Assembly: GCF_947499945.1 (NCBI RefSeq)
Contig: NZ_CANMQD010000001.1
Coordinates: 930,001-994,000, forward strand
Direction of reading: 5' to 3'
Length of the DNA stretch: 64,000 nt
Origin: an uncultured Sulfitobacter sp.
Lineage (GTDB): Bacteria; Pseudomonadota; Alphaproteobacteria; Rhodobacterales; Rhodobacteraceae
This document shows positions 14,045 through 19,748 of this stretch, in pieces (within the stretch, counting starts at the first letter, position 1; the number at the start of each line of letters is the position of its first letter). Under the pieces are notes generated by a model that made no database searches, had not been told where the DNA came from, and was given only the letters and a program-made list of their open reading frames with translations. A program made the position numbers and the translations under genes.

Positions 14045-14817
14045 TTATCCACAGCCGCTTTGAGGCTTAACAAATCCGCCCAAGCATCTCGCTTTGCATC
14101 CGTATTTCGCAGCAGATATGCAGGATGGCACATCGGTAAGGCAGGTTTATCCACAGCTTGCGTCCAGTGCCCCCGCAACCGTGTGATGCCGCGTTTTGCG
14201 AGTAAGGCCTGACAGGCCCAATTGCCCATAATGACCAGCACCTTAGGGTCAGCCAATGCGATATGGCGCAGCAGAAACGGTTTCATCATCGCAATCTCTT
14301 CAGGCTTGGGGTCGCGGTTGTGAGGGGGACGCCATGGCAGAGTGTTTGTAATATAGATCGGCGCATCGGCATTCGTACGCCCCATGCCGATAGCTGCAAA
14401 CATCTTGTCCAAAAGTACACCCGACGCACCAACAAACGGCTTGCCAATACGATCCTCATCCCGGCCCGGTGCTTCTCCAATGATCATAACAGGTGCCCCG
14501 GCAATACCGTCAGAGAACACCATATTTCGCGCACCGCGTTTCAGATCGCACAACTCAAATGCTTCCATCGCCGCGCGCAGAGCTTCCAGACTGTCGGCAC
14601 CATTTGCCGCCGCTTCGGCTTCTGCCACCGCGTCGCGGCTCTCCATCTTGACGGGACCCCGTGTGAGGTGGGGCTTGGGGTTCGCTTGCTTTGGCTTGGC
14701 AAGTTTGTCTGGCAAAGCATAGCGGTCCACAGGCATATCGCTGATGCACTCATCCGCGCCCAGCTCAATCTGCCACTCCAAAAGCGCACGCGCCGTGTGA
14801 AACTCAACTGATTCCAT
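14041..14817 (-). CDS. Uracil-DNA glycosylase superfamily (family-4-like)
   Basis: IGEAPGRDEDRIGKPFVGASG, PWRPPHNRDP, CHPAYLLRN motifs. Confidence 0.88.
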   Translation of the reverse strand: MESVEFHTARALLEWQIELGADECISDMPVDRYALPDKLAKPKQANPKPHLTRGPVKMESRDAVAEAEAAANGADSLEALRAAMEAFELCDLKRGARNMVFSDGIAGAPVMIIGEAPGRDEDRIGKPFVGASGVLLDKMFAAIGMGRTNADAPIYITNTLPWRPPHNRDPKPEEIAMMKPFLLRHIALADPKVLVIMGNWACQALLAKRGITRLRGHWTQAVDKPALPMCHPAYLLRNTDAKRDAWADLLSLKAAVDK

Positions 14818-14924
14818 GCCGACACTCTACGCCTCTGGACAACAGATCAAAATGCCTCATGCACCGCTTCTTGCCCGTCTGCGCCCGCCTCCCTATAACA
14901 GCGCAAACAGCGTAAGGTTTCCTC

Positions 14925-15863
14925 ATGAGCTTCCCCCACCGTCACCTGCTTGGTATCGAGCCGCTGCATCCCACCGAAATCACGACTTTGTTGGACCTCG
15001 CCGACAGCTATGCCGAGCAGAACCGCATGCCGGACAAGCACGGATCGGCGCTCAAAGGGCTGACACAGATCAACATGTTCTTCGAGAATTCGACCCGCAC
15101 CCAGGCAAGCTTTGAGATTGCGGGTAAGCGGCTGGGCGCTGATGTGATGAACATGGCGATGCAGGCATCTTCAATTAAAAAGGGCGAGACCCTGATTGAT
15201 ACCGCCATGACACTGAATGCAATGCATCCAGACCTGCTTGTCGTGCGTCATCCGCAATCGGGAGCTGTGGATCTACTGGCTGAAAAAGTGAACTGCGCCG
15301 TCCTCAATGCCGGTGACGGACGCCATGAACACCCGACCCAAGCGCTGCTTGATGCGCTTACCATCCGCCGTGCCAAGGGTCGCCTGCACCGCCTGTCGAT
15401 CGCCATCTGCGGAGATATCGCGCACAGCCGCGTGGCACGGTCCAATATCATGTTGTTGGGCAAGATGGAGAACCGCATCCGCCTGATCGCACCGCCCACC
15501 CTGATGCCCTCGGGCATTGGCAAATTTGGCGTAGAGGTGTTCGACAACATGGAAGAAGGGCTGAAAGATGTAGATGTCGTCATGATGCTACGCTTGCAAA
15601 AAGAGCGCATGGATGGCGGGTTTATCCCCAGCGAAAGGGAGTATTACCACCGTTTTGGCCTTGATGAGGCAAAGTTATCCCACGCCAAGCCAGACGCGAT
15701 TGTCATGCACCCCGGTCCGATGAACCGTGGTGTCGAAATTGACGGTACATTGGCCGATGACATCAACCGCAGCGTCATTCAGGATCAGGTAGAGATGGGC
15801 GTTGCAGTGCGCATGGCCGCGATGGACCTGCTAGCGCGCAATCTGGCTGCCAATCGCGCATGA
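14925..15863 (+). CDS. pyrB: Aspartate carbamoyltransferase catalytic subunit
   Basis: [42 protein letters not shown] motifs. Confidence 0.97.
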
Positions 15864-16354
15864 CCACATCAAGTTTTTGGGATAAGCTATTAGAGGCAGA
15901 TGAAAAAATACTTTGGTCGGGTCGCCCCCAACCAAAATTTCACTGGCGCAACTGGCGCTTTTTTGGCCCCGCCCCAATGGCCGCAGTCGGGCTTCTGGCG
16001 GCGGCGTGGTTCATCATATACACAACGGGAAGTGAGGGTGATATGTGGTTGCTGGTCCTGCCCGCGCTGCTAGTCCTCATCCCGCTTCGCGCGACACAGC
16101 AACAGCTGCGCACTTATAGAGCGACCCGCTATGCATTGACTGACAAGCGTGTGCTTTTCTTCAAAGTCGAGGGATCTGAAACCCGCGTTGCTGCGCACCC
16201 GCGCAGTGCGATGATCCCCCCGATCGTGCAGAACACACTTCCCTCCAGCGTGAGTTTCCTAAGGCATGGCCCGAAAAAGGTCGATGTTTTGGGGTTTGAC
16301 TTCATCCAAGGTGCCGACGACTTACTGCCGCACCTCAAGCAGGCCGCGAAATGA
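15860..16354 (+). CDS. Membrane protein with bacterial PH-like domain
   Basis: [21 protein letters not shown], two TM, then [21 protein letters not shown] overlap with pyrB. Confidence 0.65.
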
Positions 16355-16884
16355 CAAAAATTCTGATCCCCAGCGCGGAGCATGGCACAATCCGCGTCTT
16401 TGCGATCTCGCGCCCGATTGCGGATATGGCTCACGCTCTCAAGCAACAACACAAGACTGCGATCGCTTCCGTGTTGTTGGGCCATGAGGTGTCGCAGGAT
16501 GATATAGAATTATTTGCCCTATCTGATTTGACAGGTATCGGCCTTCACGGCTACCTCGCAGAAGGGTATGATGTTGACAAAGATACCCTGCGCCAAGACT
16601 TTACACGACTTGAAGCGCTTGACGGATATGTCCTGCTTGTCTTCTCGAAAGTGAGTGCAAAGGGAGATGTGACACTTACGCCGACCCATGACCTGACGCT
16701 CATCGGCACCTATGCCGAGCCAAAGGCAAAACACATAGCACCGCCGATCGTGACTGATGCATCCAAGCTTTACTCCGGCGTTTCTCAAGATCCGAAAGCA
16801 CCGCAACGGTCACGGGCAGGCAGTGCCTTTACAGCGGCGGCAGTCCTGCTCACCCTTCTCATAATATGGTGGATATTGCGATGA
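16351..16884 (+). CDS. Conserved-type hypothetical protein, C-terminal TM anchor
   Basis: 177 aa, C-terminal AAAVLLTLLIIWWILR; ATGA overlaps on both sides. Confidence 0.65.
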   Translation: MTKILIPSAEHGTIRVFAISRPIADMAHALKQQHKTAIASVLLGHEVSQDDIELFALSDLTGIGLHGYLAEGYDVDKDTLRQDFTRLEALDGYVLLVFSKVSAKGDVTLTPTHDLTLIGTYAEPKAKHIAPPIVTDASKLYSGVSQDPKAPQRSRAGSAFTAAAVLLTLLIIWWILR

Positions 16885-16985
16885 AAGAACCCAAACCCGA
16901 TCCAAAGATGTCTGGCCGCGTCGCTACGATAGCGCTTCTTGTGGCCTTTGCAGTGGCCGCAGGCATGGTCTGGTTGGCGGGATGA
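16881..16985 (+). CDS. 34-aa single-TM small protein
   Basis: Not in ORF track; MKEPKPDPKMSGRVATIALLVAFAVAAGMVWLAG, ATGA-coupled at both ends. Confidence 0.6.
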   Translation: MKEPKPDPKMSGRVATIALLVAFAVAAGMVWLAG

Positions 16986-17413
16986 GCGATCCCCTCGCCG
17001 CTTGGACACCAACACTGGCAGTTTTTGTGCGGCGCTGCGCAATAGTCGGGGTGCTGACGATTGGCCTTATGCTCTTGTTTGGCTGGATCATCGGCACGTA
17101 TACGGGTTTTTGGCAGGTCATGTATGTCGCGCCTGTCCTCGCGCTTGCCTATAATATCGGGTTCGAGGACCCCGCCCGCTGGCGTGCTGCACGCCAGGAC
17201 CGCTGGCACCTTCGCACTGATGCCGTCATCCATCACGGACCCGATGGTGAGGTCCGGATACCGCTCGCTGATGTGGTCGATGTGCGCACCCGCCTCGGCT
17301 GGAGCGTGGTAATTTTCCTCACAGACGGGCAGCGTGTTCGGATATCTTATGTGAGCGGCCCCAAAGAGATTGCCGCTCAGATCATCGCAGCTCGAAACCG
17401 CATGACACCGTGA
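16982..17413 (+). CDS. Membrane protein with PH-like C-terminal domain
   Basis: Two TM then WHLRTDAVIHHGPDGEVRIPLADVVDVRTRLGWS. Confidence 0.6.
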   Translation: MSDPLAAWTPTLAVFVRRCAIVGVLTIGLMLLFGWIIGTYTGFWQVMYVAPVLALAYNIGFEDPARWRAARQDRWHLRTDAVIHHGPDGEVRIPLADVVDVRTRLGWSVVIFLTDGQRVRISYVSGPKEIAAQIIAARNRMTP

Positions 17414-17567
17414 GCAACATTCTTGATTGATATTGGAGAAGTCAGGGAAAATCGTCTGGAAGAGCCGCTCTGATTACTGTCGTCGTAACCCGCTTGACCC
17501 AATTCACACGCATTGACGATGCGCAAAAAGTATTCCACCTCATGCAGCAGATCCAGAAAGAGACGCC

Positions 17568-18842
17568 ATGACCCACCATTTCATCAACGCCACCCTGATC
17601 GACCCCGAAAACGGGACCGAATTCGTCGGCTCGGTCAGTGTCGAGGGCGACCGCATTAGTGCAGTGACCGAAGGTGGATTAGCCAATCCCAAAGGTGATG
17701 TGATTGACTGTGGCGGCAAATACCTTGCACCCGGCATTGTCGATCTAGGGGTAAAGGTTTGTGAGCCGGGCGAGCGGCATAAAGAAAGCTACCGCTCTGC
17801 CGGGTTGGCCGCCGCTAAAGGCGGCGTGACGACAATGATCACGCGGCCAGATACGAACCCCGCGATAGACAGCCCCGAAACGCTGGAGTTTGTGACGCGC
17901 CGCGCTAATGAAGCCTCTCCTGTCCACGTCCTGCCCATGGCCGCCCTCACCAAGGGGCGCGAAGGTCGCGAGATGACCGAAATCGGGTTTCTTATGGACG
18001 CTGGAGCGGTCGCCTTTACAGATTGCGACCATGTGATCACCGACACAAAAGTGTTTTCCCGCGCACTCTCCTACGCCTGCGGCCTTGGCGCTTTGGTCAT
18101 CGCCCATCCGCAAGAGCCGATTATGAGCAAGGGGGCCGCTGTCACATCGGGCAAGTTTGCAACCCTGCGCGGCTTGCCTGCCGTCTCGCCGATGGCCGAG
18201 CGAATGGGGCTGGACCGTGACATGGCACTCGTTGAGATGACAGGTGCGAAATATCATGCCGACCAGATCACCACCGCTCGCGCCCTACCACCACTGGCGC
18301 GCGCCAAGAAGAACGGTCTGGATGTCACCGCAGGCATCGGCATCCATCACCTCACGCTCAACGCGCTGGATGTGGCGAATTACCGGACCTTCTTTAAGCT
18401 CAAACCGCCGTTGCGCGACGAAGACGACCGTCTGGCGATGGTCGATGCGGTAGCCTCTGGCCTGATTGATATCGTTTGCTCCATGCACACACCACAGGAT
18501 GAAGAGAGTAAGCGCCTGCCCTTTGAGGAAGCTGCGTCTGGGGCTGTTGGACTAGAGACGCTGCTGCCTGCGGCACTGCGTTTGTGGCACTCCGAAATGA
18601 TCACCCTGCCCCAACTCTGGCGAGTCATGTCGTTCAACCCCGCACAACGACTTGGCCTACCCTCTGGCAGACTTGCGGCGGGCGCACCTGCCGATTTGGT
18701 GCTGTTCGATGCACATGCGCCTTTTGTGATGGATCGGGCCACACTACACTCGAAATCGCGCAACACCCCGTTTGATGGCGTGCGAATGCAAGGTAAGGTG
18801 CTGGCAACTTATGTATCGGGCGCTTGCGTCTATACGGCCTGA
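17568..18842 (+). CDS. Dihydroorotase homologue, probably catalytically degenerate (PyrC'/PyrX-like)
   Basis: DHOase-like architecture with VDLGVKVCEPGERHKES in place of DxHxHxR and SMHTPQ in place of TDHAPH. Confidence 0.88.
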   Translation: MTHHFINATLIDPENGTEFVGSVSVEGDRISAVTEGGLANPKGDVIDCGGKYLAPGIVDLGVKVCEPGERHKESYRSAGLAAAKGGVTTMITRPDTNPAIDSPETLEFVTRRANEASPVHVLPMAALTKGREGREMTEIGFLMDAGAVAFTDCDHVITDTKVFSRALSYACGLGALVIAHPQEPIMSKGAAVTSGKFATLRGLPAVSPMAERMGLDRDMALVEMTGAKYHADQITTARALPPLARAKKNGLDVTAGIGIHHLTLNALDVANYRTFFKLKPPLRDEDDRLAMVDAVASGLIDIVCSMHTPQDEESKRLPFEEAASGAVGLETLLPAALRLWHSEMITLPQLWRVMSFNPAQRLGLPSGRLAAGAPADLVLFDAHAPFVMDRATLHSKSRNTPFDGVRMQGKVLATYVSGACVYTA

Positions 18843-18858
18843 TTTGGAGAGCTGACCT

Positions 18859-19467
18859 ATGCCAATCCTCGAGAGTTCCCTGACTTTACTTCTGCTCTGG
18901 GCCGTGATCGGATATCTGCTCGGCTCCATTCCGTTTGGCGTGATCGTGGCCCGTGTAATGGGTCTGGGCAATCTGCGCGAGATTGGATCGGGCAACATAG
19001 GGGCAACGAATGTGCTGCGCACAGGCTCAAAGCCTGCGGCGGCGGCGACGCTGATACTGGACGCCACCAAGGGTGCAGTTGCGTTGCTTTTGGCCCGTTA
19101 TTTCGCAGCGGAGGATGCCGCACAGGTTGCCGCTCTCGCTGCGATGATCGGACATTGCTATCCGGTTTGGCTCAAGTTCAAAGGTGGCAAAGGCGTCGCA
19201 ACCTTCCTTGGTATTTTGTTGGCTCTTGCCTGGCCTGTTGGTCTTGCCGCATGCCTTGCATGGCTCATCGGTGCGGGCCTGTCGCGCATTTCCTCCATGG
19301 GCGGGCTGTTTTCTGCGGCCTCCTCCACCATACTGATCGTTGTAATGGGTTTTGGCTCGGGATATCTGCTCAGCGTTTTGTTGGCGATCATCGTATTTCT
19401 GCGTCACCGTGCCAACATCGCCCGTATTCGCGCAGGTACAGAGCCCAAGATCGGCCAGAAGAAGTGA
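18859..19467 (+). CDS. plsY: Glycerol-3-phosphate 1-O-acyltransferase PlsY
   Basis: GSIPFGVIVAR, GSGNIGATNVLR, KFKGGKGVAT motifs. Confidence 0.95.
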   Translation: MPILESSLTLLLLWAVIGYLLGSIPFGVIVARVMGLGNLREIGSGNIGATNVLRTGSKPAAAATLILDATKGAVALLLARYFAAEDAAQVAALAAMIGHCYPVWLKFKGGKGVATFLGILLALAWPVGLAACLAWLIGAGLSRISSMGGLFSAASSTILIVVMGFGSGYLLSVLLAIIVFLRHRANIARIRAGTEPKIGQKK

Positions 19468-19748
19468 GAGCCTCGGCACCCGAAGGATTTGCCAAGGCGT
19501 TGAGAGCTATTCCGCTTGGCACATCTGTGGGACGCGTGGAGTCCATCCGCTACACCGCTACGCGCAGCGACTTTAACAACGGGCGCTCAATCAAACTGGT
19601 TGCCGAAGCTTTGGACCAGTCCGACTACGTTAGCCTTAACTTTTATGATCTGGAGAGCGGCGGGCAGCTTGCCCCTTGCGAAATGCAGCATGACAAGGTG
19701 GTCGACTTTATCATGGCCTATTGTCCTGAAACGGAGACGTCATATTGA
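19464..19748 (+). CDS. Hypothetical protein (GTG start)
   Basis: 94 aa VRASAPEGFAKALRAIPLGTSVGRVES...; GTGA overlap with plsY and TTGA overlap with the next gene. Confidence 0.55.
   Translation: MRASAPEGFAKALRAIPLGTSVGRVESIRYTATRSDFNNGRSIKLVAEALDQSDYVSLNFYDLESGGQLAPCEMQHDKVVDFIMAYCPETETSY

Follow-up and report, generated by a model that had tools for sequence, protein, structure and literature searches.

The gene pyrC' (pyrX) at positions 17568-18842 (+ strand) of the window, i.e., the whole 64,000-nucleotide stretch from an uncultured Sulfitobacter sp. analyzed here, encodes a pseudo-dihydroorotase of 424 aa that belongs to an already known type, the inactive partner of class A2 aspartate transcarbamoylase (ATCase) termed PyrC', PyrX or pDHO. 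Very probably, this PyrC' is a non-catalytic protein that bridges PyrB in a class A2 ATCase, while catalysis is left to a separate type II PyrC. The case is real and largely ordinary, as inactive ATCase partners were known before. New here, judged from alignments and trees, are the apparently independent origin of the site loss relative to a Pseudomonas-like line and a gradation of site erosion; the insertion of genes between pyrB and pyrC' in Rhodobacterales is an addition to the known picture.

A dihydroorotase homologue with an eroded site

The reading frame of 17568-18842 has no internal stop and encodes a type I dihydroorotase homologue of full length. With TIGR00857, the NCBIfam model of the multimeric dihydroorotase subfamily, the product scored 325.9 bits (cut-off 279.05). 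The top NCBIfam model was NF006558 (PRK09059, 'dihydroorotase') with 495 bits, a score that does not reach the equivalog cut-off of 645 bits. Closest solved relatives are Aquifex PyrC and the Bacillus anthracis dihydroorotase. An AlphaFold model built from 105 locus-derived sequences had a pLDDT of 96.9, and its best PDB match, at a TM score of 0.96, was the Aquifex dihydroorotase 3d6n_A, which comes from a complex with ATCase (PDB entry). Owing to these two values, the dihydroorotase fold appears to be retained in the predicted structure.

Alignment to Aquifex PyrC gave a different picture for the pocket. At the nine positions that we take, as established knowledge, to be the metal, catalytic and substrate residues of type I dihydroorotases (H61, H63, R65, N95, D153, H180, H232, D305 and H309 in Aquifex), PyrC' carries G61, K63, C65, D95, C153, H180, Q233, M306 and Q310. 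Eight of the nine are thus gone (H61G, H63K, R65C, N95D, D153C, H232Q, D305M and H309Q in Aquifex numbering), including five of the six ligand positions, D305 among them. The metal ligand H180 (18105-18107, +), present in 130/130 close relatives, is the sole survivor, also of the catalytic set consisting of HxHxR, the bridging Asp, H180, H232, D305 and H309. The N-terminal motif reads D59-L-G61-V-K63-V-C65-E-P-G versus D-I-H61-V-H63-L-R65-D-P-G in Aquifex, such that the former HxHxR metal/substrate motif (17748-17762, +) has become G61-V-K63-V-C65. Further along the same strand, the former substrate residue Asn95 is Asp (17850-17852), the former bridging metal ligand Asp153 is Cys (18024-18026) and the former metal ligand His232 of Aquifex is Gln233 (18264-18266). 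In the second motif, S-M306-H-T-P-Q310 versus T-D305-H-A-P-H309, both the catalytic Asp and the substrate His have disappeared (18483-18497, +).

A sequence-only reading of this DNA had described DxHxHxR as replaced by D-L-G-V-K-V-C, and TDHAPH as SMHTPQ with Met for the catalytic Asp; both descriptions proved correct in the alignment. The interval it had assigned, 17742-18497, runs exactly from codon D59 to codon Q310, but the gene extends beyond both ends, and the losses N95D, D153C and H232Q (window Q233) are additional to it. Of 130 distinct sequences with an identity of 57% or more to the window protein, 118 have the combination G-K-C-D-C-H-Q-M-Q, and the loss of the site is therefore not a sequencing accident. 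Given these replacements, PyrC' is presumably wholly without activity. Another mode of site loss was seen in the alphaproteobacterial family f13, in which three members (L212, L214 and L263) have the HxHxR region gapped at 63 and 65 rather than substituted (G--D...).

The pyrB locus and the catalytic dihydroorotase

The presumed partner gene pyrB (14925-15863, +), coding for an aspartate carbamoyltransferase catalytic chain of 312 aa (NF002032, 404.8 bits, cut-off 263), lies upstream of pyrC' on the same strand, with three genes in between. These are ORF164 (15860-16354, +), a small membrane-protein gene without family match that overlaps the pyrB end by ATGA, ORF177 (16351-16884, +), predicted to encode a soluble domain plus a C-terminal membrane helix, and ORF143 (16982-17413, +), again a small membrane-protein gene, with no family match above cut-off. 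The inserted small membrane-protein genes (window 15860-17413) evolve fast. Among 141 partly redundant Rhodobacterales loci, ORF177 was found between pyrB and pyrC' in 133, ORF143 in 49 and ORF164 in 23. In this order, pyrB and pyrC' are non-adjacent, being separated by small membrane-protein genes that are unrelated and number three at most; in most other alphaproteobacteria the two genes abut or overlap, and they were same-stranded in all fetched loci in which both were found. Despite its confident model (pLDDT 91.7), ORF177 matched nothing in Pfam, in NCBIfam or among PDB folds, and it may represent a small, novel family associated with pyrB-pyrC'. A promoter/terminator scan of 14500-19600 yielded matches not above chance. 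On the 3' side of pyrC' follows plsY (18859-19467, +; TIGR00023, 182 bits), the gene for glycerol-3-phosphate acyltransferase. The same position of plsY in Rhodobacterales and Sinorhizobium meliloti points to an old link between a pyrimidine and a phospholipid gene. In Ruegeria sp. TM1040, the pyrB-pyrC'-plsY cluster resides on a megaplasmid of 822 kb, and the dead gene there (L287 4001-5311) is annotated as pyrC, dihydroorotase.

We propose that PyrC' dimers would bridge two PyrB trimers to form a dodecameric class A2 ATCase as in Pseudomonas, and that this bridging would stabilize or activate PyrB, with dihydroorotase activity being contributed by the separate type II PyrC of the pyrC-pyrE cluster. 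We infer that PyrC' physically binds PyrB and that PyrB depends on PyrC'. The partner role, already suggested by the sequence-only reading, is supported by the linkage of pyrC' to pyrB in a bacterial order that lacks PyrI and by the pyrimidine auxotrophy of the S. meliloti counterpart mutant (PMC5929573). That reading had also expected an intact dihydroorotase elsewhere in the genome. Such a gene is indeed present (G000:C1:176283-177299): it adjoins pyrE, its product is a type II enzyme with intact motifs (TIGR00856, 426 bits, cut-off 293), and its nearest relatives are solved dihydroorotases. As a refinement, the active enzyme of this genome is, to judge from its sequence, the type II (E. coli-like) PyrC. 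A second type I homologue in the same genome (L002) was rejected as the active dihydroorotase, scoring 191 bits and thus below the dihydroorotase cut-off; it looks like a dihydropyrimidinase, adjoining an amidase, and is not needed for this role because the type II enzyme is present. A type II dihydroorotase above cut-off was found in 150/150 Rhodobacterales genomes and PyrI in 0/150, with the search controls positive in 7. Such a distribution is consistent with an ATCase that contains PyrC' instead of PyrI.

In the survey of the class, as read from its tables, an eroded site was accompanied in the genome by a type II enzyme or by another match to TIGR00857, the latter being a level that hydantoinases can reach too. 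The exception is G224 (98% complete, 90 contigs), which counts against the scaffold interpretation: it encodes an eroded PyrC' (L266, G224:C19; site QSGDGHQGE), and no second dihydroorotase was found at E <= 1e-30. This gap may reflect a missing contig, auxotrophy or another enzyme. In G269 and G273, the PyrB-linked protein is the only dihydroorotase match, and its site, QHRNDHHDH, is intact except for H61Q. This pattern, seen in these two genomes, is what would be predicted if the PyrB-linked protein were either enzyme or scaffold.

Also counted against the scaffold interpretation is that the 312-aa PyrB shows no clear N-terminal extension like that in Pseudomonas; its dependence on a partner is thus not readable from sequence. 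The genes inserted between pyrB and pyrC' in Rhodobacterales weaken translational coupling and weigh against it as well; they would suit a PyrC' that functions independently of PyrB, the linkage to pyrB being a relic. We consider such independence very unlikely, as same-strand linkage persists despite the inserts, pyrC' directly overlaps pyrB in other alphaproteobacteria, and the S. meliloti mutant is auxotrophic.

Pocket conservation and the course of site loss

Might PyrC' have retained dihydroorotase or a related amidohydrolase activity by means of a rebuilt site that uses, e.g., Cys65, Cys153, His180 and Lys63? The nine pocket residues hardly vary within the Roseobacter group (118/130), where their positions exceed 98% of random nine-site sets in conservation; in Rhodobacterales they are strongly conserved, at a ratio of 0.24 of the average rate. 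However, in a divergence-matched comparison at 70-85% identity, which comprised few pairs, the eroded pockets of other alphaproteobacteria were about as conserved, and the fixation is thus nothing special. In addition, both cysteines are absent from deeper, early-branching Rhodobacteraceae, which have Gly/Ala at 65 and 153, and a separate type II dihydroorotase always accompanies PyrC' in Rhodobacterales. We therefore give a retained activity very little credence. A re-specialized Cys/Cys/His pocket likewise received no support from the divergence-matched control. For this reason, and in view of the cysteine-less early-branching Rhodobacteraceae, there is at best a slim chance that the Roseobacter-group pocket (fixed Cys65, Cys153 and His180; Lys63, Gln233, Met306 and Gln310) was rebuilt to sense a ligand or a metal and so takes over the role of PyrI in regulating the ATCase dodecamer.

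The gene is under purifying selection: the median dN/dS was 0.04 (34 close pairs with dS of 0.05-0.8, Nei-Gojobori), and a homologue was found in 150/150 sampled Rhodobacterales genomes (E <= 1e-30), which together indicate that pyrC' is not decaying. The idea that a former dihydroorotase is decaying here as a pseudogene, which the disappearance of nearly the entire active site might suggest, is already contradicted by these selection data, by the open frame and by 190 of 424 positions that are nearly invariant across Rhodobacterales, and can practically be dismissed.

To trace the loss, a 46-row tree was computed with the nine pocket columns omitted. Eroded alphaproteobacterial sequences formed one clade (support 99/98), and those with intact sites (L199, L206, L282 and L275, where L206 has Q at 61) were placed at the base of the alphaproteobacterial clade. 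The branching order runs from RHRNAHHDH, the partly eroded site of basal members such as L278, via RQRNGHHD(H/Q) to RFG-type sites, and then, within Rhodobacteraceae, from RFGDAH(L/M)S via GKGD(A/G)HQ(F/M)Q to GKCDCHQMQ as the last. Living alphaproteobacteria thus preserve a gradation that begins with intact sites and ends with completely eroded ones. Multiple losses within the alphaproteobacteria, indicated by a quick tree with two nested intact sequences, were rejected, as a constrained search gave a better one-loss tree and the intact sequences are basal in the careful tree.

A further eroded clade (L247-L260), which we call 'Pseudomonas-like' on the basis of its placement outside the alphaproteobacteria, is separate from the eroded alphaproteobacterial sequences. 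Constraining all eroded sequences to one clade, which amounts to a single inactivation, was rejected by the AU test at p=0.0004, an outcome that is model-dependent and refers to an eroded group set by motif, not by tree. On this evidence, the loss of the site in alphaproteobacteria was probably an event separate from that in the Pseudomonas-like PyrC' lineage, with two losses as the minimum. The designation 'Pseudomonas-type', as used in the sequence-only reading, is thus adequate with respect to function but does not extend to one shared inactivation, since the two lines probably lost their sites separately.

Relation to known systems

Genes of this kind are annotated as 'dihydroorotase' (e.g., pyrC in Ruegeria); catalysis belongs to another protein, of type II. 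For an entire order of abundant marine bacteria, this label would lead metabolic models and target lists astray. The alphaproteobacterial gradation of site erosion, along all of which pyrB linkage is kept, allows each step on the way from enzyme to scaffold to be tested, a way that was apparently taken at least twice in proteobacteria.

Class A2 ATCases with PyrC'/pDHO are known from P. putida and P. aeruginosa (PMC7053772; Schurr et al. 1995 cited therein), and P. aeruginosa pDHO is inactive yet required in vitro for the active trimer of the PyrB chain (PMC7053772). The window protein resembles these partners in being a type I dihydroorotase homologue without a metal site, encoded with pyrB, in a genome with a presumably active dihydroorotase elsewhere and with PyrI absent. 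It differs from the Pseudomonas-like clade in its probably independent loss and its other replacements (e.g., S/A-R-R-D there, G-K-C-D here), and from Pseudomonas in that other genes split pyrB and pyrC' in the window. In S. meliloti, disruption of smc01361, a pyrB-linked dihydroorotase homologue, causes pyrimidine auxotrophy, though an essential PyrC is encoded elsewhere (PMC5929573). The PyrX counterpart in an S. meliloti record is eroded at 9/9 positions (RFGDGGESQ) and shares with the window protein the clade and the gene order pyrB-pyrX-plsY, but is about 45% identical to it, has other pocket residues, and its gene overlaps pyrB by 4 bases. The fungal CAD-like pseudo-dihydroorotase is similar by description, having the dihydroorotase fold, lost zinc ligands and a location next to ATCase (PMC7053772), but it is fused, as one domain among others, into a multifunctional protein of eukaryotes. 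With Aquifex aeolicus PyrC (3d6n, 4bjh; class A1), finally, the window protein has in common the predicted fold and the presumed position in the dodecamer, whereas the Aquifex enzyme is active and has all site residues, of which the window protein keeps one of nine.
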